A stretch of DNA of 64,000 bases from a bacterium (GTDB lineage Bacteria > JAHJDO01): assembly GCA_030652805.1 (NCBI GenBank), contig JAUSPT010000054.1, positions 1 through 64,000 of the forward strand. Direction: 5' to 3'. This document shows, piece after piece, positions 43,562-63,336 of the stretch. Numbering within the stretch: position 1 is the first letter of the stretch; each line of letters starts with the position of its first letter. The notes under the pieces are model-generated. The model saw nothing but the letters and a program-made list of their open reading frames with translations. It ran no database searches and was not told where the DNA came from. Made by a program: the position numbers and the translations under genes.

Positions 43562-44513
43562 TTCAAAATACCCTTTTGTCTCAATAATAGTAATTGCAAA
43601 AGGGGTCTCCGAATATCTGGCAGAATGTATAGAGAGCTGCTTTGCGCTTGACTATCCGGAATTTGAGATTATATTCCTGCCGGATAAAGAAGCTAACCTG
43701 AATTACAAAGATGTTTCCGTTGTTCCTACGGGCGAGACAGGACCTGCAGTGAAGAGAAATATGGGAGTTAAAGAGGCTAAAGGAGAGATTGTTGCATTCA
43801 TAGATGATGATGTTTACCCTGCAAAGGGTTGGTTGAAAAATGCAGTTCGAAATTTCTCTGACCCGGAAGTAGCGGCTGTTGGCGGACCTGCTGTAACCCC
43901 TTATAATGATGATGCTATGCAAAAAGCCAGCGGATTGGTATATTCATCTAAGCTTGTTAGTGGAGAATATAGTTATAGATATATTAAAGGAACAAGAAAA
44001 GAAGTAGAAGACTTTCCGTCATGCAATCTGATTGTAAGAAAAAGTGTTTTCGAAAAATTAGGAGGATTCAATACCAATTTCTGGCCTGGAGAGGATACTG
44101 TTTTATGTCTGGAGATAACAAAAAAATTAGGAAAAAAAATAATCTATGAACCTGAAGCCCTAGTATATCATCATAGAAGACGTTTGTTTAAAGAACATCT
44201 CAAACAGGTTACCAGTTATGCTAAGCATAGAGGTTATTTTGTTAAGAGATTTCCTCAGACATCTAAAAAGTTTTCCTATTTTGTTCCTTCGTTGCTTATT
44301 GCTGGAATAGTAACGGGAGCATTCTTTACAGGGCTTTGTGTTTTCTTTAGATCTGTGTATTTTATTATACTTGGTATATATCTGATTTCAGTAGCATTTG
44401 AGACAGTAAAATCCAAAAATCTTTTAGTATTCCCAGGCATTATCTCCACGCATTTTGCCTACGGAATCTTCTTTATCAAAGGATTACTTTCTAGAAGGCT
44501 GGAAGAAGAATGA
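43545..44513 (+). CDS. Glycosyltransferase family 2, membrane-anchored
   Basis: The 322-residue GT-A enzyme has VSIIVIAKGVSEYLAECIESC, the metal site FIDDDVYPAKGW, GGPAVTP and a C-terminal acidic motif FWPGEDTVLCLEI. Two or three membrane helices at the C-terminus (SLLIAGIVTGAFFTGLCVFF) anchor it. This is the mycofactocin/AglE-type arrangement. It starts inside the flippase gene and overlaps the following radical SAM gene by four bases. Confidence 0.88.
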   Translation: MKERADSKYPFVSIIVIAKGVSEYLAECIESCFALDYPEFEIIFLPDKEANLNYKDVSVVPTGETGPAVKRNMGVKEAKGEIVAFIDDDVYPAKGWLKNAVRNFSDPEVAAVGGPAVTPYNDDAMQKASGLVYSSKLVSGEYSYRYIKGTRKEVEDFPSCNLIVRKSVFEKLGGFNTNFWPGEDTVLCLEITKKLGKKIIYEPEALVYHHRRRLFKEHLKQVTSYAKHRGYFVKRFPQTSKKFSYFVPSLLIAGIVTGAFFTGLCVFFRSVYFIILGIYLISVAFETVKSKNLLVFPGIISTHFAYGIFFIKGLLSRRLEEE

Positions 44514-45988
44514 AGATAATTATCGCATATCCGCCGCTTAGCTGCAAAGGAAACAAGAAAAAGGTCCCTCTTCTTTCCCAGAACAGACAGTTTCAATGGT
44601 TTCACAGTCCTACCTATATCTATCCCGTTGTTCCTGCCTGCGCTGCAACTATGCTCAAGAATGCCGGATATAACATGATCTGGTGTGACGGAATAGCCGA
44701 GAAAAAGACGTATAAAGAATTTTTGAATTTTGTTGCTGAAGAAAATCCTGATTTGATAATGATGGAAACAAAAACGCCGGTAGTCAAACAGCACTGGAAA
44801 ATCATCAACGAACTCAAGATTCAAAATTCAAAACTCAAAACTGTCCTTGTCGGCGATCATGTGACTGCATTACCGGAAGAGAGCATGAAAAACTGCAATG
44901 TTGATTTTATCCTGACAGGTGGAGATTACGATTTCCTTCTCCTTAATCTATGCGAGGTTCTAAAAAAACTCATCACTCATCACTCATCACTCATCACTAA
45001 ATTAGAACCCGGTATCTGGTATAGAAAAAACGGGGACATAAGAAATACGGGCAAGTTTAAGCTTGATCATGATCTAAATACTCTTCCTTTTATTGACAGG
45101 GATTTAACAAAGTGGCAGTTATATGCGTATAAAAATGGAAATTATAAGCGGACACCCGGCACTTATATAATGGCAGGAAGGGACTGCTGGTGGGGGAAAT
45201 GCAAGTTTTGTTCATGGACCACGCTCTATCCGAATTTTAGAACCAGAAAGCCAGAACATGTTTTAGATGAGATAGGAACGTTGATTGAGAGGTATCACAT
45301 AAAAGAAATTATGGATGATACGGGAACATTTCCTGTCGGAGAATGGCTGAGAGAGTTTTGTGATGGAATGATAAAAAGAGGATACAATAAAGAAATAAGA
45401 TTTAGCTGCAATATGAGATTCGGCACGTTAGAGCAAAAAGATTATGATTTAATGGCAAAAGCCGGTTTCAGGTTTATACTCTACGGACTGGAATCCGCAA
45501 GACAGGAAACACTTGACAGGATACATAAAAACCTCAAGGTTTCTGCAATAACAGAAGGCGCAAGAATGGCTAAGCAAGCAGGCTTGCATCCGCATCTTAC
45601 AACAATGATAGGATATCCATGGGAAACCAAAGAAGATGCATTAAGGACAATTCAACTCGCAAAGGAGCTTTTTCGCAAAGGCTATGTAAATACACTGCAA
45701 GCAACAATAGTAATACCATATCCAGGAACGCCTCTTTTTGACGAATGCAAAAAAGGCAATCAGCTGAGAACTCTGGATTGGAACAGATATGACATGCAGG
45801 AACCTGTAATGAAAACTCCTCTCACAGATGCTGATGTAAAACAATTTACACAGGGACTTTACAAGTCTTTCATAACTCCCGGTTTTATATTCAGAACTAT
45901 AACTTCTATAAGGGACTTTGATGATATAATTTTTATACTGCGCGCAGTAAAATCAGTTCTTGGGCATTTAACGGATTTTAGAAAATGA
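44510..45988 (+). CDS. B12-binding domain radical SAM protein with Cx4Cx2C cluster motif
   Basis: The 492-residue protein has an N-terminal cobalamin-binding-type domain (IIIAYPPLSCKGNKK, TVLVGDHVTALPEE, ILTGGDYDFLLL). A radical SAM core follows with CWWGKCKFC (Cys226, 231, 234), which has one extra residue in the usual Cx3Cx2C spacing. YGLESARQETLDRIHKNLK and TMIGYPWETKEDAL are typical later motifs. Two heptamer arrays lie inside the coding frame, at 44820 and 44968. It probably modifies a sugar or lipid precursor in this cluster. Confidence 0.87.
   Translation: MKIIIAYPPLSCKGNKKKVPLLSQNRQFQWFHSPTYIYPVVPACAATMLKNAGYNMIWCDGIAEKKTYKEFLNFVAEENPDLIMMETKTPVVKQHWKIINELKIQNSKLKTVLVGDHVTALPEESMKNCNVDFILTGGDYDFLLLNLCEVLKKLITHHSSLITKLEPGIWYRKNGDIRNTGKFKLDHDLNTLPFIDRDLTKWQLYAYKNGNYKRTPGTYIMAGRDCWWGKCKFCSWTTLYPNFRTRKPEHVLDEIGTLIERYHIKEIMDDTGTFPVGEWLREFCDGMIKRGYNKEIRFSCNMRFGTLEQKDYDLMAKAGFRFILYGLESARQETLDRIHKNLKVSAITEGARMAKQAGLHPHLTTMIGYPWETKEDALRTIQLAKELFRKGYVNTLQATIVIPYPGTPLFDECKKGNQLRTLDWNRYDMQEPVMKTPLTDADVKQFTQGLYKSFITPGFIFRTITSIRDFDDIIFILRAVKSVLGHLTDFRK
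44820..44840. repeat. TTCAAAA heptamer, 3 copies, in the radical SAM gene
   Basis: The units TTCAAAA, TTCAAAA and CTCAAAA lie in frame and encode IQNSKLK. They are close in sequence and translation to the insert in uvrC at 33207. Confidence 0.65.
44968..44998. repeat. ACTCATC heptamer, 4 copies, in the radical SAM gene
   Basis: Four exact ACTCATC units plus ACT encode LITHHSSLIT between the B12 and radical SAM domains. A change of one unit would shift the frame and truncate the protein before its cluster motif. Confidence 0.85.
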
Positions 45989-46897: not shown

Positions 46898-46925
46898 GGG
46901 AAATAGAAAATGGAAAAAGGGAAAT
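46898..46925. repeat. GGGAAAT-type heptamer, 4 degenerate copies
   Basis: The units GGGAAAT, AGAAAAT, GGAAAAA and GGGAAAT run across the start codon of the four-helix-bundle gene. They supply its ATG and first codons (MEKGKWG). Confidence 0.6.
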
Positions 46926-47326
46926 GGGGTCAGATTAGGCATTTTAGTGATATAGAAGCATGGAAGATAGGGAGAGAAGTCAGAAAGAGTGTTTATGCAT
47001 TTATTAAAACATTACCTGATGGAGAGAAATATAATCTTAGTTCTCAAATGAGGAGAGCAGCAGTCTCTATCACAGCTAACATTGCTGAAGGATATGGACG
47101 GTATCACTATCAAGAAAATATTCAATTCTGTCGGCAAAGTAGGGGTTCTATATATGAAATGCAAGACCATTTGATCACTTGTTTAGATGAGGGATATATT
47201 GCTAAAGAGGATTATGAGAAAATTTATTCTTTATACGAAAAAGCTACTAAGGCAATTAATGGGTATATTAGACTGCTTAAAAGGCAGCAAGCAGAGAATA
47301 AAGAGAGAATAGCAAATGGTAAATAG
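46910..47326 (+). CDS. Four-helix-bundle protein (23S rRNA intervening-sequence / S23 type)
   Basis: The 138-residue helical protein has the family pattern [49 protein letters not shown] and [29 protein letters not shown]. Such proteins are encoded in rRNA intervening sequences, and often stand alone near repeats. The biochemical role is unknown, although some relatives associate with diversity-generating retroelements. No reverse transcriptase is seen here. The first residues derive from the heptamer tract. A remnant relative lies at 61139. Confidence 0.9.
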
Positions 47327-47368
47327 AATTCCCAAATCCCAATTCCCAGTTCCCAATTCCCAATCCCC
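47327..47368. repeat. AATTCCC-type heptamers, 6 copies, in the broken GT2 gene
   Basis: Six consecutive 7-bp units (AATTCCC, AAATCCC, AATTCCC, AGTTCCC, AATTCCC, AATCCCC) form the 5' part of the frame and encode [13 protein letters not shown]. Confidence 0.75.
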
Positions 47369-47438
47369 ATTGGTAAGCATAATAATCACAACTAAAAACG
47401 AAGAGAAAAACATAGAAAATTGCTTAGAATCAATCCTG

Positions 47439-47494
47439 AATTCCCGTTTTCCAATTCCCAGTTCCCAATTCCCAGTCTCCAATTCCCAATCCTC
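47439..47494. repeat. AATTCCC-type heptamers, 8 copies, in the broken GT2 gene
   Basis: Eight degenerate 7-bp units interrupt the glycosyltransferase fold between the first helix and the [12 protein letters not shown] strand. They add about 18 residues rich in Ser, Pro and Gln. Confidence 0.75.
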
Positions 47495-47559
47495 AATCGA
47501 GATAATCGTAGTGGACAACAACTCAACTGATAAAACCGTTGAGATTGTCAAATCCTATT

Positions 47560-47589
47560 GTCATTGCGAGGCGAAGCCGAAGCAATCTC
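47560..47589. repeat. Dispersed ATTGC...GCAAT palindromic repeat, copy 2
   Basis: The copy reads GTCATTGCGAGG-CGAAGCCGAAGCAATCTC and matches the element at 24679 in both arms. It is read through in frame inside the glycosyltransferase fragment. Confidence 0.75.
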
Positions 47590-47655
47590 ATATTCGATTT
47601 TACACAAAAGGCCCAGAGCGTTCTGCCCAGAGAAATTTTGGAGTTAAGAAAGTAA

Positions 47656-48867
47656 ATGGATAAAGTTGCAATTGTTTCTACGATTCAACCAGAAACGCAT
47701 TACACGAGATATTTGTATAAAGAGTTGAAAAATATAAATGAAAATATATATTTATTAATTGATGATATTCCAGAAAATGATGAATTTGTAGAAGGACAAA
47801 AAGATAAAAATATAATTAAATTGTGGAAAGCAAACTTATCATTGCCATTTGCAATAAATAGATTTGTGAAATTAAATAATATCTCAATAGTGCATTTGCA
47901 GCATGAATTTAATATGTATGGAGGAATTAAGGGTATTCCTATTTTTCTTTTTACAATGATATTTTTAAAGATCGTCAGGAAGAATATAGTTGTTACAACT
48001 CATGCTGTTGTCGATTATAGAACAATAGACAATGATTTTCTTGAAACATTTGTTTTGGACAAATTTAAAAGAATTAAAGATATTGCAAAAATTGCATTTT
48101 ATTTGTTTTACAAGGTCGTTGGTTTAATAGCAGATAAGGTTATAGTGCACTCGAATTTTACTAAACAAATTTATATAGATTCATATAAGATAAAAGAATC
48201 AAAATGTTTTGTTATTCCAATTGGTGTTAATAATTTAAGTAGCGTAATTGCCAATGATAAAGGATTAGATTCTAAAACAGAATGGTCAGAAGAGATCAAA
48301 GGTAAAAATATTATATTGTATTTTGGATATATTTTAAAAAGAAAAGGGCTTGAGTTGTTAATCCAGGCTATTTCAAGTCTGAAAAATGATATCCCTGATA
48401 ATGTTGTTGTCTTGGCAGGTGGGATGTTGGAAAATCAAAAAGGATATGTGGACTATCTTAAAAAAATGATAACTGAGAAAGGGTTAACTAAGGAAATTAT
48501 TTTTACGGGTTTTTTATCTAAAAAAGAGATTGACTTTCTATATAATAAATGTGATTTTGTAGTGCTTCCATATACGTATTCAATTTCATCTAGTTTGCCT
48601 TTATCTCTGGCTTTTGAAGCAGGAAAGCCCGTAATAGCTAGCGATATAGGGACATTAAGGGATGAGATAATAGATAATGTCAACGGTCTATTTTTCAAGA
48701 ACGGAGACTTAAAGGAATTATGCGATAAGATATATCTGTTGAGTACGAATAATAACTTGCTGAGGCGACTGCAAAACGGAGCGAAACGCGAATTTGGAAT
48801 AAGGTCGTGGGCTAAGATAGCCAAACTAACTAATGAGGTAATATACTCAAATAAGAAGCCAAATTGA
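47656..48867 (+). CDS. Glycosyltransferase family 4
   Basis: The 403-residue GT-B enzyme starts DKVAIVSTIQPETHYTRYLYKEL. It has VHLQHEFNMYGG, YFGYILKRKGLELLIQAISSL, ITEKGLTKEIIFTGFLSKKEID, PLSLAFEAGKPVIASDIGTLRDEI and a C-terminal helix. It opens a block with noticeably higher AT content that lacks repeats until about 57.8 kb, possibly a later-acquired cassette. It should add a sugar to the lipid-linked glycan. Confidence 0.88.
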   Translation: MDKVAIVSTIQPETHYTRYLYKELKNINENIYLLIDDIPENDEFVEGQKDKNIIKLWKANLSLPFAINRFVKLNNISIVHLQHEFNMYGGIKGIPIFLFTMIFLKIVRKNIVVTTHAVVDYRTIDNDFLETFVLDKFKRIKDIAKIAFYLFYKVVGLIADKVIVHSNFTKQIYIDSYKIKESKCFVIPIGVNNLSSVIANDKGLDSKTEWSEEIKGKNIILYFGYILKRKGLELLIQAISSLKNDIPDNVVVLAGGMLENQKGYVDYLKKMITEKGLTKEIIFTGFLSKKEIDFLYNKCDFVVLPYTYSISSSLPLSLAFEAGKPVIASDIGTLRDEIIDNVNGLFFKNGDLKELCDKIYLLSTNNNLLRRLQNGAKREFGIRSWAKIAKLTNEVIYSNKKPN

Positions 48868-55264: not shown

Positions 55265-56146
55265 TTGCCGGGTAGAATTATGGACACTTATAACTATGAA
55301 GTCTGTCCTCAAGGTATGTGTTTTGCTGATAATGGGTTAAATATAAACTATATTTTTCTTTGTAACCACATAACGGAACGTCTCGCTGAAAATAAACGCA
55401 TAAAAATTCTGGAGATCGGAGCAGGAGGAGGAAGAAATCTGAGAATAATTTACCAGAAATTTGGAAGCAAAGTAGAATTGTTCGGAACCGATATTAGTAA
55501 TACTGCGATAGACTATGCGAAATCACTAGAAATCGGTAAATTTTATCTGGCGAAATCAGAAATTATTCCCGTTGCGGAAAAGTTTGATCTCATATTAATG
55601 ATTGATATATTGGAACATTTAAAAACCAAGAGCGTTGTTAAGAAAACTTTGGATAATGCTTTGTTGTATCTAAATGATGGGGGAAATATTTATATATCTC
55701 TGCCCATAGAGTTAAACAGATTTTCCTTAACATGGCTTTTCAGTAAACTGCATTATTTTAAAAACTTAACGAAGATGTTTTGGGGACATTTGATTCAATT
55801 TAATATTAAAGGTTTCTTAAAATTAATTGATCTTAATAAATTTAAATTAGAGGAAGCTTTCTATAGCGTTCATTTCCTTAGCCAGTTACAAATACTTTGT
55901 TTCTTTTATCTGCCAAAGATTTTATTGCAATTCTTTTTTGGAAAGAAAATAGCTAATGATTTAAGAGATTCTAACGAAATAATCAATAATATAAAGCATC
56001 CTCTTTTGAATCTTGCAAAAAGAATAATTATAAATTTTAGCTATCCTTTATCTTATTTGGCGTTTAAAGAATCCCATCTCAAGAGAACTTCTTCTTTCGC
56101 CGTAGGAAATATGCATTTATTAATAAGCAAAGATTATATCAAGTGA
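55265..56146 (+). CDS. Class I SAM-dependent methyltransferase
   Basis: The protein of about 293 residues has ILEIGAGGGRNLRIIYQKFGSKVELFGTDISNTAIDYAKSL, DLILMIDILEHLKTKSV and YLNDGGNIYISLPIELNRFS. The start is a TTG at 55265, or the ATG 15 bases further on (MDTYNYEVC). The C-terminal part carries hydrophobic helices. It overlaps the next membrane protein by four bases (ATGA-type). Confidence 0.85.
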   Translation: MPGRIMDTYNYEVCPQGMCFADNGLNINYIFLCNHITERLAENKRIKILEIGAGGGRNLRIIYQKFGSKVELFGTDISNTAIDYAKSLEIGKFYLAKSEIIPVAEKFDLILMIDILEHLKTKSVVKKTLDNALLYLNDGGNIYISLPIELNRFSLTWLFSKLHYFKNLTKMFWGHLIQFNIKGFLKLIDLNKFKLEEAFYSVHFLSQLQILCFFYLPKILLQFFFGKKIANDLRDSNEIINNIKHPLLNLAKRIIINFSYPLSYLAFKESHLKRTSSFAVGNMHLLISKDYIK

Positions 56147-58494
56147 AGATGAAAAAGTTTTTTCTGCGACACTGGTACTATTTGTTGATAATTTTTCCGT
56201 TGCTGATATTTATCTACTCTGTATGGGACCGTAGTTTTTATATGGGGGGAGATGTGATGTTCCCTTTAGATCCCGTTAATAATATGCAGAGGATATTTTT
56301 ATGGGACAATGACGCTGAATCTTTTCGCTTCGTCTGCACCTCCTGGTTTTTGTTTTTTTATCTGTTTTTTTTAATAGGATTTCCTGCCTTTGTAATTCAA
56401 AAAATTCTTCTAGTCCTCTTATTGGTTTTTGGTTTTACATTCACTTATCTGTCTTATGCGGAATTATTCAAAGGAACAAAATATGATTCCGATAAATGGA
56501 GATTTCTTGCAGGCATTGTTTTCACTTTTAATCCCATTTATTTGTTGCTGTGCCCCGCTTATCTGCCTCTTTATGGTTTTCCTGTATGTTTTTATTTTCT
56601 GATGAAATTTTTACGCAGCAACAAAATTATTTATGTTTTTTTCTTTTCTATTTTCTTAAATTTTTTCTTTTTTTTGGAATTGCCACAGCCCAAACAGTTA
56701 ATAGTCTTCGCCTTGGCATCTTTTTGTCTTGCATATCTGTATCAACAAGTAAGAAATCTTATCTTCAGGGACGTTTTTGCCCGGTTAATGAAAATTTTTC
56801 TTTTGAGTGCGTTATTGAATTTATGGGTTTTAATTCCTCTTCTTCATAACATGTTTTTTGGGATTGGGGCAACTTTTGCTAGAAACTTGGTAACCTATGG
56901 CGGGGACGCGGATCTTAAAACGGCAACGTTGGTTTATATCGCAAGATTTTTTAATTTAAATATCATCCTATATTACCCGCATCTAAAATCGTTTTTAACG
57001 AGTGCGCCTTTCATTTTTTGGACGTTCGGCCAATGGATACTTATCGTCTTAAGCATGTTTTTTATTATTAAGGATAGAAAATCCCAAAAAATCATCACAA
57101 CCCTGCTCCTCGTGGTTCTTTTTTTTATCTTTGTTGCAAAGGGTTCTAATCCTCCATTAGGGGAATTGTATCGTTTTGCTATCATGCACATCCCGCTGAC
57201 AAGAATGTTTAGAACGTCCTCTACGGTTGTTACTGGCGCTGTTGTTTTTTATGCTTTTTTATTTTCCATGGCGATGTTTAATTTATTTAGGAATCGGAAG
57301 GTCTGGGTTTATGTTTTTATTGTTTTAAATGTCGTATCCTTCTATCCTATTTATTTTGGTTACAAGTTCTACAATCCGATCCCATTTGCCCCCGAAAAGA
57401 AGGGACATATCATCCCTCAGGCTTATTTCGAAATAGGGCGTTTTCTTGACGCTATTAAAGAGGATTCGAAGATTCTGTCCATTCCTCTGCACAGGGGGGG
57501 ATATGTTGAAAAAAACTGGGGCTATTTCGGTTCTGATCTTTTGAGCTGGATTACAAAAAAACCTTTGATCTATCGCGAAGGTGGTAATGTAATCACAGTA
57601 GAGCAAAAAGAGAATAGTTCAAAACTTCCGGAGAGCTACAGAGAATACGCTTTAAATAATGCAGGATATCTTCTTGTTAAGAAAGATACGGTCGGCGGTA
57701 GATATCCCAAATACGATTATCCTGACAGGAAGGATCTTTTAATAAGAAATGACTATTTTGACCTCTACAAAATCTCCGACGAATACTTTCTTCCCCACAT
57801 CTACGCATCCACTACTTCAACTATTATCAATGGCAATATGGAAGCATTGGTGCCGCTTACGGAGACGAAATACCTAGGAGGAGGAAAACGGGAAATGGGA
57901 AATGGGAAACGGAATAAACAGGTGCTATTATTTACGGAACAGGATAAGGCAAGAGGTAAAGGTGGAGGTAAAGAGAAGGCAAAGGAAGAGGTGAAGGTGG
58001 AGGGAAAAGGTAAAGAAGAACCTGAGATTATATTTAAGAAGATAAATCCGACGAAATATTTGGTAAAGGCAGAAGGAGCTAAGACGCCGTTTTGGCTGGT
58101 GTTTAGTGAGAGTTTTCATAAGCAGTGGAAGATTTACAGACGACAGACGACAGACGACAGACGACAGATATTTCAGGAGATTGTGGCGGATTATCCAAAA
58201 TTGAAAGTTAAAGAGGCAAAGCATTTGATGAAATTTACTCCGCAGGATATTAAATTTTTATTTAGAAAACCTCTGGATGCGCAGCATCAATTGGTGAACG
58301 GATATGCCAATGGATGGTATATTGAGCCGAAAAAATTGGGATTAGAAGAGGACTTTACTTTGGTTCTGTATTTCTGGCCCCAGTCACTTTTTTACTTAGG
58401 ACTTGGAATATCTGGGCTAACGTTACTTTGTTGTTTAATTTATTTGACATATAGGTGTTTTCCCTTCTCTGTCAAGAGAAGGGGTAGGGGATGA
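56143..58494 (+). CDS. Large GT-C-like membrane protein with C-terminal soluble domain
   Basis: The 783-residue protein has about 11-12 hydrophobic helices from residue 12 to about 440. An early acidic loop (SFYMGGDVMFPLDPVNNM) resembles the donor loop of GT-C enzymes. The soluble C-terminal domain contains FWLVFSESFHKQWKIYRR and the later NGYANGWYIEP. This resembles arabinofuranosyltransferase-type membrane proteins that use polyprenyl-phosphate sugars, but that assignment is tentative. Three repeat tracts lie inside the soluble part (57883, 57951, 58136), and the last residues (KRRGRG) are encoded by a hairpin repeat. They must be tolerated surface loops if the protein is active. Confidence 0.75.
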   Translation: MKMKKFFLRHWYYLLIIFPLLIFIYSVWDRSFYMGGDVMFPLDPVNNMQRIFLWDNDAESFRFVCTSWFLFFYLFFLIGFPAFVIQKILLVLLLVFGFTFTYLSYAELFKGTKYDSDKWRFLAGIVFTFNPIYLLLCPAYLPLYGFPVCFYFLMKFLRSNKIIYVFFFSIFLNFFFFLELPQPKQLIVFALASFCLAYLYQQVRNLIFRDVFARLMKIFLLSALLNLWVLIPLLHNMFFGIGATFARNLVTYGGDADLKTATLVYIARFFNLNIILYYPHLKSFLTSAPFIFWTFGQWILIVLSMFFIIKDRKSQKIITTLLLVVLFFIFVAKGSNPPLGELYRFAIMHIPLTRMFRTSSTVVTGAVVFYAFLFSMAMFNLFRNRKVWVYVFIVLNVVSFYPIYFGYKFYNPIPFAPEKKGHIIPQAYFEIGRFLDAIKEDSKILSIPLHRGGYVEKNWGYFGSDLLSWITKKPLIYREGGNVITVEQKENSSKLPESYREYALNNAGYLLVKKDTVGGRYPKYDYPDRKDLLIRNDYFDLYKISDEYFLPHIYASTTSTIINGNMEALVPLTETKYLGGGKREMGNGKRNKQVLLFTEQDKARGKGGGKEKAKEEVKVEGKGKEEPEIIFKKINPTKYLVKAEGAKTPFWLVFSESFHKQWKIYRRQTTDDRRQIFQEIVADYPKLKVKEAKHLMKFTPQDIKFLFRKPLDAQHQLVNGYANGWYIEPKKLGLEEDFTLVLYFWPQSLFYLGLGISGLTLLCCLIYLTYRCFPFSVKRRGRG
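57883..57910. repeat. GGGAAAT-type heptamer, 4 copies, in the GT-C-like gene
   Basis: The units GGAAAAC, GGGAAAT, GGGAAAT and GGGAAAC are in frame and encode GKREMGNGKR. Confidence 0.75.
57951..58020. repeat. Purine-rich GGTAAA/GAGGTG repeat in the GT-C-like gene
   Basis: About 70 bp of purine-rich sequence in 6-bp steps encode a Lys/Glu/Gly stretch (GKGGGKEKAKEEVKVEGKGK). It belongs to the same family as the tract at 41111. Confidence 0.7.
58136..58168. repeat. ACAGACG heptamer, 4 copies, in the GT-C-like gene
   Basis: Four exact ACAGACG units plus ACAGA encode RRQTTDDRRQI. A one-unit change would shift the frame before the last 120 residues, which include the conserved NGYANGW motif. Confidence 0.85.
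58462..58483. repeat. Hairpin repeat at the end of the GT-C-like gene
   Basis: CCCTTCTCT and AGAGAAGGG form a 9-bp stem with a GTCA loop, followed by GGTAGGGGATGAG. The layout resembles common REP-type palindromes. It encodes the last residues of the protein and may also act as a transcript-end hairpin. Confidence 0.65.
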
Positions 58495-59793: not shown

Positions 59794-61083
59794 ATGGAAA
59801 GATATTTAATTAAACAAATACTTTTAGAACAAGAAGAAGAAATTGCCGAGATTTTTAAAGGGAAAATCATCAAAAGAGAAATTGAGCCAGTGGCAGAGGA
59901 AATGATTGACTCGGATTTAATTAAGGTAATTATGGGAGTGAGAAGGTGTGGTAAGTCTGTTTTGGCTCATCTGTTATTAACAGGCAAAAAATATGGTTAT
60001 GTCAATTTTGATGATGAGAGATTGATTGGAGTGAAAGCCGAAGACCTTAATGATTTTTTAGAGGTTTTAAAAGAAATAGATCCGGATTTTGAGTATTTGT
60101 TGTTGGATGAAGTTCAGAATGTAAAAGGATGGGAGTTATTTGTTAATCGTTTGAAGAGGAAAGGCTATAAGATTGTTGTTTCCGGAAGCAATTCAAATCT
60201 TTTAAGCAAAGAATTAGCTACTCATCTTACAGGAAGGCATTTTGGCATTGAACTCTATCCATTTTCTTTTAGAGAATTTTTATCTTATAAAGGGATTATT
60301 GTAAAGGAACGGGACTCCTATATAACAGAAAAAAGAGCGGGCATAAAGAAATTACTTGAGGAATATTTGAACTTAGGAGGCTTGCCGGAAGCATTAAAGA
60401 TTGATGCTAAAAAAAATTATTTAAGAGAACTTTTTGACAAGATAATTACACGGGATATTGTCTCAAGGTACAACATCAAGTATGTTAAGGATTTGAAAGA
60501 GATAGCCTTATATACAGTCTCTAATTTTAGCTCCAAAATTACCTATCACAAGATCAAAAACATCTTTGAGATAAAAAGTGTGCATACAATTAAAAACTAT
60601 CTCGGTTATTTGCAAGAGGCTTACTTAGTATTTCAGCTCAACCCTTTTTCATTCAAATTGAAAGAACAAATTAAACAGCCGAGGAAAATTTATTCAATAG
60701 ATACAGGTTTGATAAATGCCCTTGTTCCTAAAATTACATTTGATTATGGGAAACTAATGGAAAATCTGGTGTTTTTAGAATTAATGAGACGGGGTAAGGA
60801 AATTTATTTCTATTCTCAACCTAATTATGAAGTGGATTTCTTGGTAAAAGAGGGATTAAAAATAAAACAATTAATACAAGTCAGTTTTTCAATAAGTGAT
60901 GAGGGAACAAGAAAAAGAGAGATAAAGGCTCTGCTGAAGGGCTCTAAGGAATTAAGATGTAATGAGTTAATTATGATTACATGGGATGAACAGGGGGAAG
61001 AAAAAGTTAATTCTAAAGTAATAAAGATTATTCCCCTATGGAGATGGCTGCTTATGAAGAATTACGGAAAAGATAATTTTTGA
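59794..61083 (+). CDS. AAA ATPase with DUF4143 domain
   Basis: The 429-residue protein has the Walker A GVRRCGKS (48-55), Walker B YLLLDEVQ (101-108) and sensor VVSGSNSNLL. The family motif TGRHFGIELYPFSFREFL is present, and the C-terminal DUF4143 part has YEVDFLVKEG and IQVSFS, a PD-(D/E)xK-like core. Such ATPases are common in archaea and candidate-phylum bacteria and have no settled function; defence or DNA-related roles have been proposed. It has its own promoter and is not part of the polysaccharide operon. Confidence 0.9.
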   Translation: MERYLIKQILLEQEEEIAEIFKGKIIKREIEPVAEEMIDSDLIKVIMGVRRCGKSVLAHLLLTGKKYGYVNFDDERLIGVKAEDLNDFLEVLKEIDPDFEYLLLDEVQNVKGWELFVNRLKRKGYKIVVSGSNSNLLSKELATHLTGRHFGIELYPFSFREFLSYKGIIVKERDSYITEKRAGIKKLLEEYLNLGGLPEALKIDAKKNYLRELFDKIITRDIVSRYNIKYVKDLKEIALYTVSNFSSKITYHKIKNIFEIKSVHTIKNYLGYLQEAYLVFQLNPFSFKLKEQIKQPRKIYSIDTGLINALVPKITFDYGKLMENLVFLELMRRGKEIYFYSQPNYEVDFLVKEGLKIKQLIQVSFSISDEGTRKREIKALLKGSKELRCNELIMITWDEQGEEKVNSKVIKIIPLWRWLLMKNYGKDNF

Positions 61084-61120: not shown

Positions 61121-61150
61121 TAAAAGGTATAGGGAAAGGTGAAGGAGAAG
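61121..61150. repeat. Purine-rich repeat left of the four-helix remnant
   Basis: AAAAGGTATAGGGAAAGGTG and the following GAAGGAGAAG continue the purine-hexamer theme. The tract supplies the GTG start of the fragment at 61139, and a similar tract in the opposite orientation lies on the other side of that fragment. Confidence 0.55.
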
Positions 61151-61345
61151 TATAAGTATAAGAGTTTTAAGGATATGGCAATTTGGCAGACAGCGCCTCA
61201 ACCTACTGAGAGCCAGAGTCATCTGGAATACGCTAAAAGAGTTGGTTATATAAATATTGAATCTGCTAAAAAGCTGGATAAAAAGTTATCACAACTCTAT
61301 AATGACTTAAATAAAGTAGTTCTCACTTTGCGAGGCTCCGTATGA
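61139..61345 (+). pseudogene. Internally deleted four-helix-bundle protein
   Basis: The 68-residue frame joins the beginning of the family (KYKSFKDMAIWQ) directly to its end (ESQSHLEYAKRVGYINIESAKKLDKKLSQLYNDLNKVVLTL). Intact members are about 115-140 residues. The middle helices, with the RRA..I..NIAEG motif present in the copy at 46910, are missing. It is therefore a deletion remnant, flanked by purine tracts in opposite orientation. Confidence 0.75.
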
Positions 61346-61415: not shown

Positions 61416-62708
61416 ATGAAACCATATAAATATAATCTGATAGTTATAGTTCTCTTCACTATTCTTGCTCTTATAATTACTTTTCCTGTTATCTTTAATA
61501 TGAGTAAATTAATCTATGGCTATCCTGATGATACGCTCGGTACAATTTGGGGGATTTGGCGAGACGGAAACGCGTCTCTTCAGATTAAAGACTTTTTATT
61601 ATTCCCTGCAGTAAATTATGAAACAGGTGATTACAATATATATATTCATACTTTGTGGCCTATAATAAATTTCTTAACTAACGAAGTGATCACATGGAAT
61701 ATTGTCTCCATTTCCAATTTTATTCTTTCGGCTTTTTTTATGTATCTTCTTGTGAAATACCTGACAAAAAGCAGAATAGCGGCATTTATTTCAGGCGTCA
61801 TCTACGGCTTTTGCCCTCATATCTGCATGCAGTCTTTTAATCATATAGCGATTGCTGCAATTCAATGGATGCCGCTGTATATTCTATTTTTGTTGAAATT
61901 AGTATTTGAGAAAAACTACAGGAACGCAGTTTTATGCGGAGTTTTTTACGCATTGGTTGTTTTCTCCAATCCGTATTATGGCTATTACATGCTTCTATTC
62001 ACTATTGTATTTATTATTTTCTTAGTATTAAAACATATCAAAAATCTATACGCAGTGATAAAGGAAGATAGATTTAAAATATTTAAATTAGCTGGCGTGA
62101 CTTTTTTGACTGCTCTAATTATTGTCGTTCCGGCCGAATACAAGATAATCAAGACAATGTTTTCAAAAAGCAAGGATAAGCCTGCTGTTTTCACTCGCCC
62201 ATTGGAAGGATTGATATTTTCAGGAGCTCGACCCAAGGATTTCATGCTTCCTCCGAGAACAAATCCTGTGCTCAAAAATATCTCTAAGCCATTTATCTCT
62301 CCTGATTTCGGCAGTATGATAGACCATACCCTGTATCTTGGATATACACCGCTAATCTTATCTGCTATTGCAGTGGGATTTTGGTGGAAGAGAAGGAAAA
62401 ATGGAAAATGGAAAATGGGAAATTCCCAATTATCTGTTGTTATCCCATTTTTTCTAATAATATTCTTTGCTTTTGGAATTATGTCCTCTCCTCCATGGAT
62501 ACCTATTGGTGCAGCGAAACTGAACAGCGCTCCATTCAAGCTTCCCATGCCATCATATTTTCTTCATAAGCTGTTTCCGATGTTCAGGTATTATTCAAGA
62601 ATGGTTGTTGTAATGATGATATCATTGAGTGTGCTTTCAGGAATTGGGATAAAATTCTTATTAGAAAAATTTAAAACTCCCAATTCCCAATTCCCAATTC
62701 CCAATTAA
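61416..62708 (+). CDS. GT-C-like membrane protein, N-terminal part (frame broken at a heptamer array)
   Basis: The 430-residue frame has an N-terminal helix (LIVIVLFTILALIITFPVIF), the loop YPDDTLGTIWGIWRDGN, then about ten helices and FRYYSRMVVVMMISLSVLSGIG. This fits GT-C-type polyprenyl-phosphate sugar transferases. The last codons [11 protein letters not shown] are pure TCCCAAT repeat, and the TAA lies at the repeat's right edge. The next helix and soluble part continue in another frame from 62705. As sequenced the protein lacks its last membrane helix and C-terminal domain. Confidence 0.8.
   Translation: MKPYKYNLIVIVLFTILALIITFPVIFNMSKLIYGYPDDTLGTIWGIWRDGNASLQIKDFLLFPAVNYETGDYNIYIHTLWPIINFLTNEVITWNIVSISNFILSAFFMYLLVKYLTKSRIAAFISGVIYGFCPHICMQSFNHIAIAAIQWMPLYILFLLKLVFEKNYRNAVLCGVFYALVVFSNPYYGYYMLLFTIVFIIFLVLKHIKNLYAVIKEDRFKIFKLAGVTFLTALIIVVPAEYKIIKTMFSKSKDKPAVFTRPLEGLIFSGARPKDFMLPPRTNPVLKNISKPFISPDFGSMIDHTLYLGYTPLILSAIAVGFWWKRRKNGKWKMGNSQLSVVIPFFLIIFFAFGIMSSPPWIPIGAAKLNSAPFKLPMPSYFLHKLFPMFRYYSRMVVVMMISLSVLSGIGIKFLLEKFKTPNSQFPIPN
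62395..62430. repeat. GGAAAAT/TCCCAAT heptamers in the membrane protein gene
   Basis: GGAAAAAT, then GGAAAAT twice, GGGAAAT and TCCCAAT are read in frame and encode KNGKWKMGNSQ. They lie in a loop between two membrane helices. Confidence 0.7.
62678..62706. repeat. TCCCAAT heptamer, 4 exact copies, at the frameshift point
   Basis: Four exact TCCCAAT units plus T run to the in-frame TAA. The open frame that continues the protein is displaced by one base. Adding one unit, or removing two, would join the two frames. Confidence 0.9.
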
Positions 62709-63238
62709 GAACTGCTCTTTTTACGTGCATAATTTTTCTTTTAATAGGAGTTGAATATATAAATGTTCCCCCGTTTCATTATTTTGATTCAACACCGCCG
62801 AAACTATATACATGGCTTGCAAAACAGGAGGGAGAGTTTAACTCTGCTATTGCTGAGTATCCGATGCTTGCCGGAAGAACGCAAGCATATGGATATATGT
62901 TTTGGCAAAGGGTGCATAAACAGAAACTTGTTAATGGAGGAGATATATCTCGTTTAGAAAAACTTCTCCATATTGATAATCCCCAAACTGTCCAACAGCT
63001 TAGAGAATGGGGAGTTAAGTATGTGATTATTCACAGGGATTTTTACGAAGATAAAGATTACAAAGAAAACTACAATGTTCCTATGCCGATTATTGATGAA
63101 GATAAACTTGGTTTGAAGCTGATTAAGTCTTTTAACCAGGGAAAGAATAAGCATTATAAAGAACAATATATGTCTCCAAACGTTTATTTTGACAAATTCT
63201 TCGGTAAAACAGATGTGTATGAGATTCTTGAGAGGTAG
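62705..63238 (+). pseudogene. GT-C-like membrane protein, C-terminal part, out of frame
   Basis: The frame continues without a stop from the repeat edge. It starts with a membrane helix (TALFTCIIFLLIGVEYI), then NVPPFHYFDSTPPKLYTWLA, IAEYPMLAGRTQAYGYMFWQ and EWGVKYVIIHRDFYEDKDY, and ends TDVYEILER. This is the extracytoplasmic tail expected for the protein encoded from 61416. No ribosome-binding site starts it separately, although an ATG at 62864 exists. It is probably untranslated unless the heptamer array changes length. Confidence 0.75.
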
Positions 63239-63266: not shown

Positions 63267-63336
63267 GAATTTTTACAAAAATTCTTGGGGGAATTGAAAA
63301 TAGTCTTGACTATTTTCCAATATAGTGCAAAATAGT
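63267..63336. promoter_or_regulatory. Cluster of palindromes upstream of the second DUF4143 ATPase
   Basis: GAATTTTT (63267-63274) pairs with AAAAATTC (63277-63284). Next, GAAAATAGTC (63296-63305) and GACTATTTTC (63308-63317) form a 10-bp inverted repeat. A third AAAATAGT half-site is at 63329-63336, just before the ATG. TTGACT (63306-63311) and CAAAAT (63328-63333) could be a promoter with the palindrome over its -35. The arrangement suggests regulation by a DNA-binding protein. Confidence 0.5.

Follow-up and report, generated by a model that had tools for sequence, protein, structure and literature searches.

A gene for a YfhO-like membrane protein, lying near the end of the 64,000-nucleotide stretch of DNA analysed here (the window), is broken at a run of TCCCAAT heptamers. 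The question is whether this break represents a phase-variation switch caught in its OFF state, as the original prediction proposed, or an incidental frameshift in a repeat that the gene otherwise tolerates.

The TCCCAAT array and the broken frame

TRF and direct reading of the sequence confirmed that the TCCCAAT run ends in the TAA of a membrane-protein frame, and that the C-terminal frame continues one base out of register (Table 1). The array comprises 4.14 perfect units (29 bp), for which the chance expectation is about 1e-8 per 64 kb; a run of this length is not due to chance. It is a tandem repeat in coding sequence whose unit length is not divisible by three (4.14 x 7 bp), and gain of one unit or loss of two restores the register arithmetically to give a gene of 1.82 kb, as had been calculated for the original prediction (1.8 kb). 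The out-of-register frame is open from 62675 to its stop at 63238, has no canonical start before 62864, and codes for a hydrophobic helix and, after it, a domain of ~150 aa that looks soluble. The array falls at about codon 420 of 600 and was placed by hydropathy in a short loop between the last two helices, such that the truncated product retains every helix but the last and loses the C-terminal ~150 residues.

Table 1. Positions in the window of the broken gene, its heptamer arrays, and related arrays in neighbouring genes.
Feature	Position	Strand	Basis and remarks
TCCCAAT x4.14 array	62678..62706	+	TRF, direct reading; degenerate AAATTTA, AAACTCC in the same 7-bp register from 62667
5' part of YfhO/GT-C-like membrane protein gene, 430 aa	61416..62708	+	ORF; Pfam YfhO; 74% identical to P0002 of G002; TAA end at array
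TAA stop of frame 0	62706..62708	+	first T is the last base of the array
3' part of YfhO-like gene (last transmembrane helix and C-terminal domain)	62675..63238	+	one base out of register; 78% aa identity to G002
Second, degenerate heptamer array of YfhO-like gene (AAAATGG x3 plus TGGGAAATTCCCAA)	62395..62436	+	TRF; in frame; hydrophilic loop; heptamer register common to G002
Two in-frame heptamer arrays (AACTCAA; ACTCATC) in radical-SAM/B12 gene 44510-45988	44811..44998	+	three-species alignment
In-frame arrays (AAATGGG; GAGGTAAAGGAG; ACAGACG x4.7) in GT-C-like gene 56143-58494	57886..58168	+	TRF; G002 comparison

The product of the 5' part (P0001) matched Pfam YfhO (PF09586) at 32.9 bits against a cut-off of 28.5 (E 3.2e-8), and its orthologue in G002, a genome of the same genus, scored 38.1 bits (P0002). 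PMT_2 matched the full-length G002 relative below its cut-off. Since the YfhO match was above cut-off and was accompanied by a sub-threshold PMT_2 match, the label of a predicted GT-C-like membrane protein is reasonable. The gene neighbourhood is a glycan-type cluster, and the predicted role of the gene is probably in sugar transfer or otherwise glycan-related. There was no sequence match to the protein among solved structures in the PDB. No protein relatives were found in GTDB contigs, in a scan that possibly did not extend to its own and very near genomes.

Several features surround the gene. An AAA_14/DUF4143 ATPase gene (59794-61083) separates two genes that lie side by side in G002, and another ATPase-like ORF begins at 63325. 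A short ORF at 61139-61345 resembles, by eye only, a degraded four-helix-bundle (23S IVP-like) protein. At 47316-47663, a 115-aa fragment of a GT2 glycosyltransferase, which carries two arrays of the TCCCAAT type, adjoins a 23S rRNA intervening-sequence protein gene (46910-47326).

Comparison with the orthologue in G002

The original prediction had pointed to related genomes as the place to look for a single uninterrupted gene, and G002 carries one, an ORF of 600 aa that is 74% identical. An orthologue was not found in G001, G003, or G004, which leaves the gene present in one of four same-genus genomes. Judged by the intact orthologue, the frame break in the window is real. Where the window has TCCCAAT, G002 carries five in-frame units of another heptamer, AAATTWA (AAATTTA, AAATTAA, AAATTTA, AAATTAA, AAATTAT); the intact orthologue comes from another species and has another repeat unit. 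Read in the same register, the window has AAATTTA, AAACTCC, CAATTCC x3, and CAATTAA, with the AATT core holding its phase in nearly every unit of the two sequences.

In a blastn alignment of the window with G002, in which the placement of gaps is not unique because the sequence is of low complexity, the window array was 14 bp (two units) longer, with an additional frame-keeping gap of 3 bp just after it. Given this two-unit difference in length, unit number accounts for the frame break. With no outgroup that carries the gene, the unit changes could be polarised neither in direction nor in number.

Stops in the C-terminal frame would have suggested decay, and none were found. The 560 bp that follow the break contain no further stops or frameshifts, and constraint there was similar to that of the upstream part. 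The C-terminal frame shares 78% aa identity with G002 at a dN/dS of 0.19 (NG86) or 0.33 (YN00), compared to 0.19 (NG86) or 0.18 (YN00) for the whole upstream part. Conservation of the C-terminal frame indicates that constraint acted on it for most of the divergence between the two genomes, and the frameshift would therefore be recent, reversible, or an error.

Heptamer arrays in the genus and in other bacteria

Beyond what the original prediction described, further heptamer arrays with different units occur at 44.8-62.4 kb of the window, including one in the YfhO-like gene itself that is in frame (62398-62423). Among periods of 5 and above, period 7 alone was strongly over-represented in the window, with seven arrays of at least 2.5 units compared to 0.1 expected, and four arrays of at least three units compared to 0.0 in shuffles; there were none with periods of 8-24. 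The 18 kb around the TCCCAAT site contain, with that array counted, at least seven heptamer arrays that differ in their units. When mismatches were tolerated (score of at least 13), seven arrays were detected at 40-64 kb of the window, and none at 1-40 kb, in the 39 kb downstream, or in 347 kb of other contigs of the same genome (G000). Because the sample of G000, a draft assembly of 102 contigs, was taken as stretches covering about 22% of the genome, clustering of heptamer arrays in the glycan-type region is suggested rather than proved. In G002, nine heptamer arrays were found in 219 kb of sampled contigs, and three in the homologous contig. We also considered whether TCCCAAT arrays are numerous across G000 and rejected this, as a search for three-unit arrays (one mismatch allowed) gave just two sites, each of them on the contig of the window.

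The internal arrays in ORFs of G000 and G002 were all in frame except the TCCCAAT array at the break, in an ORF-based count that is biased towards in-frame cases. Both arrays of the radical-SAM/B12 gene could be compared with orthologues in G002 (92%) and G003 (88%). The first was of equal length in the three species, with its AATTCAA/AACTCAA unit becoming ACTCATC-like in G003, and in the second the window exceeded both sister species by exactly 21 bp, or three ACTCATC units. The sole length change seen in a conserved gene was a multiple of three units. In the GT-C-like gene, the window has a 33-bp ACAGACG array (58136-58168) where G002 has AAAATCA x4.7, likewise over 33 bp (L020 19768-19800). 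Judged from these alignments, array sites and register persist between species while the unit sequence is replaced.

A separate observation concerns the same GT-C-like gene, which is chimeric relative to its G002 counterpart (L020 18004 onwards). The two proteins share 75% identity over the C-terminal 162 aa but have no similarity in their N-terminal parts, and in each genome the point where similarity begins borders on short tandem arrays.

A scan of GTDB for TCCCAATx4 matched at least 105 contigs from unrelated bacteria; the matches listed were mostly from filamentous cyanobacteria and also included Xanthomonas, Gammaproteobacteria, Clostridiales, Bacteroidetes, and Roseiflexaceae. Among these listed matches, 61 of the 108 arrays away from contig edges lay outside long open frames, and arrays within genes were in frame in about 10 cases and frame-shifting in about four, as judged by open-frame length alone. 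The units are not ubiquitous in bacteria, as four-unit arrays of TCCCAAT, ACAGACG, and ACTCATC each occurred in two or three of 385 diverse genomes, their own included; a reversed-pattern control gave 0-1 of the 385. With its period over-represented and its sites in both relatives and unrelated bacteria, the array belongs to the general class of dispersed heptameric SSRs (STRR-like). These results agree with published accounts, in which heptameric repeats are over-represented yet little studied (PMC4692102) and short heptamer repeats have a patchy distribution across phyla (PMC4679880).

Within this class, the array resembles the dispersed heptamers described from Xanthomonas (GGGAATC) and from Nostoc (GGGGA(C/T)T) (PMC4692102), alongside the heptanucleotide STRRs of cyanobacteria. 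The Xanthomonas and Nostoc repeats share with the window array the unit length, a typical number of about four units, and conserved sites with changes in length and sequence, and the G-rich strand of the window array, GGGAATT, is close to the Xanthomonas unit. These repeats and the cyanobacterial STRRs are mostly intergenic, whereas arrays in G000 and G002 are often inside genes and show replacement of the unit at a given site. The TAACTGA heptamers of Beggiatoaceae and cyanobacteria, which lie upstream of starts and have a proposed translational role (PMC4679880), are likewise short direct repeats, patchy across phyla and tolerated in ORFs mainly at the protein periphery, but they differ in unit and in their placement upstream of starts.

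In an unrelated genome, an ACTCATC array (L202 1501-1532) lies in frame within a 441-codon open frame as a linker-like insertion. A TCCCAAT array of 14 units in Clostridiales (L119 3540-3638) is flanked by long open frames that differ in register; with its longer tract, it is perhaps a better candidate for phase variation.

Incidental frameshift or maintained switch

The reading we prefer, to which we give about an even chance, is an incidental, recent frameshift that arose by slippage in a tolerated linker microsatellite and is reversible in principle. The heptamer microsatellite, present in both species, would occupy the short loop that links the final two transmembrane helices, with repeat number and unit sequence turning over at the site by slippage. 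In the sequenced copy, unit number would have moved outside the frame-keeping class of the intact orthologue (by two extra units in the alignment), and translation would therefore stop after the penultimate helix, with loss of the last helix and the C-terminal domain. Further slippage could reverse the shift. We infer slippage as the cause, the loss of function, and the recency of the shift. Against the incidental reading, one sequence of this kind is also what a maintained switch would present if sampled while OFF.

Such a switch would be a phase-variation (contingency) locus, in which the number of TCCCAAT units varies in the population by slipped-strand mispairing to turn the full-length protein on and off, with the assembly representing OFF. 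We regard this as rather unlikely. Its best precedent is neuO of E. coli K1, which encodes a capsule-modifying enzyme and carries an AAGACTC heptanucleotide in its coding sequence; heptamer number sets the reading frame, the product being full length when the unit count is divisible by three, and variation (3-53 units, most commonly 20) has been proven (PMC13001214). In both genes a heptanucleotide lies inside the coding sequence and unit number shifts the frame, and a surface-glycan function is likely for the YfhO-like gene. Location in a glycan-type cluster, conservation of the off frame, and the unit gains at the radical-SAM array of the same genome also favor a switch. However, the neuO repeats stand at the 5' end, mostly in many units and with proven variation, whereas the YfhO-like gene has four units, late in the gene and known from a single sequence. 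In Haemophilus influenzae, hmw1A and hmw2A carry 13-38 heptamers in their promoters that alter transcription (PMC2651432); these too are heptanucleotide SSRs that affect a surface component, but they act through the promoter and not the frame. A long tract at the 5' end or in the promoter is usual, not strictly required, for phase-variable genes, and the TCCCAAT array has neither the length nor either position.

The original prediction therefore stands in part. The break at the array, the uninterrupted gene in a relative, the two-unit difference, and the conserved off frame were borne out; the switch itself was not supported, given an array of only four units at a late site, its membership of a widespread SSR class, the other internal arrays being in frame, and an imperfect array of another unit in G002. 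Arrays occur equally in the conserved radical-SAM enzyme, where only frame-keeping changes were seen. An incidental loss-of-function allele is more likely than a maintained switch.

A unit count that is wrong through an error of consensus or assembly, with the real gene in frame, would be consistent with a C-terminal frame without decay. The assembly is a fragmented draft, and count errors arise most often in repeats. We nevertheless consider an error quite unlikely, since an ordinary read is longer than the array of 29 bp and the other arrays on the contig are in frame. A settled pseudogene, decaying after the frameshift, would have company in the nearby remnants, namely the GT2 fragment and possibly the degraded ORF at 61139-61345, but the intact 3' frame, with constraint like that upstream, makes this very unlikely. 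A broader proposal is that the heptamer linker arrays of glycan-cluster genes in this genus, with fixed sites, units swapped between species (TCCCAAT/AAATTWA, ACAGACG/AAAATCA), and register and often length kept, form a joint contingency and modular-recombination system of an uncultured lineage, with the YfhO-like gene as an OFF switch; we hold this to be very doubtful. Ribosomal frameshifting within the repeat, which would yield the full-length protein from unchanged DNA through a -1 shift across the ~30 bases where the frames overlap (62675-62705), is extremely improbable, as the zero frame has no canonical X XXY YYZ slippery heptamer at 62675-62708 and the intact G002 orthologue needs no shift.

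If unit number varies in the population, the locus would extend neuO-like heptamer switching to a little-known lineage, one distant from the pathogens where such switches were worked out. Even without such variation, it offers a clean natural case in which a heptamer microsatellite has broken a gene, with its sister arrays in frame. The retention of site and register while the unit is replaced between species bears on the origin and persistence of heptamer repeats in bacteria.
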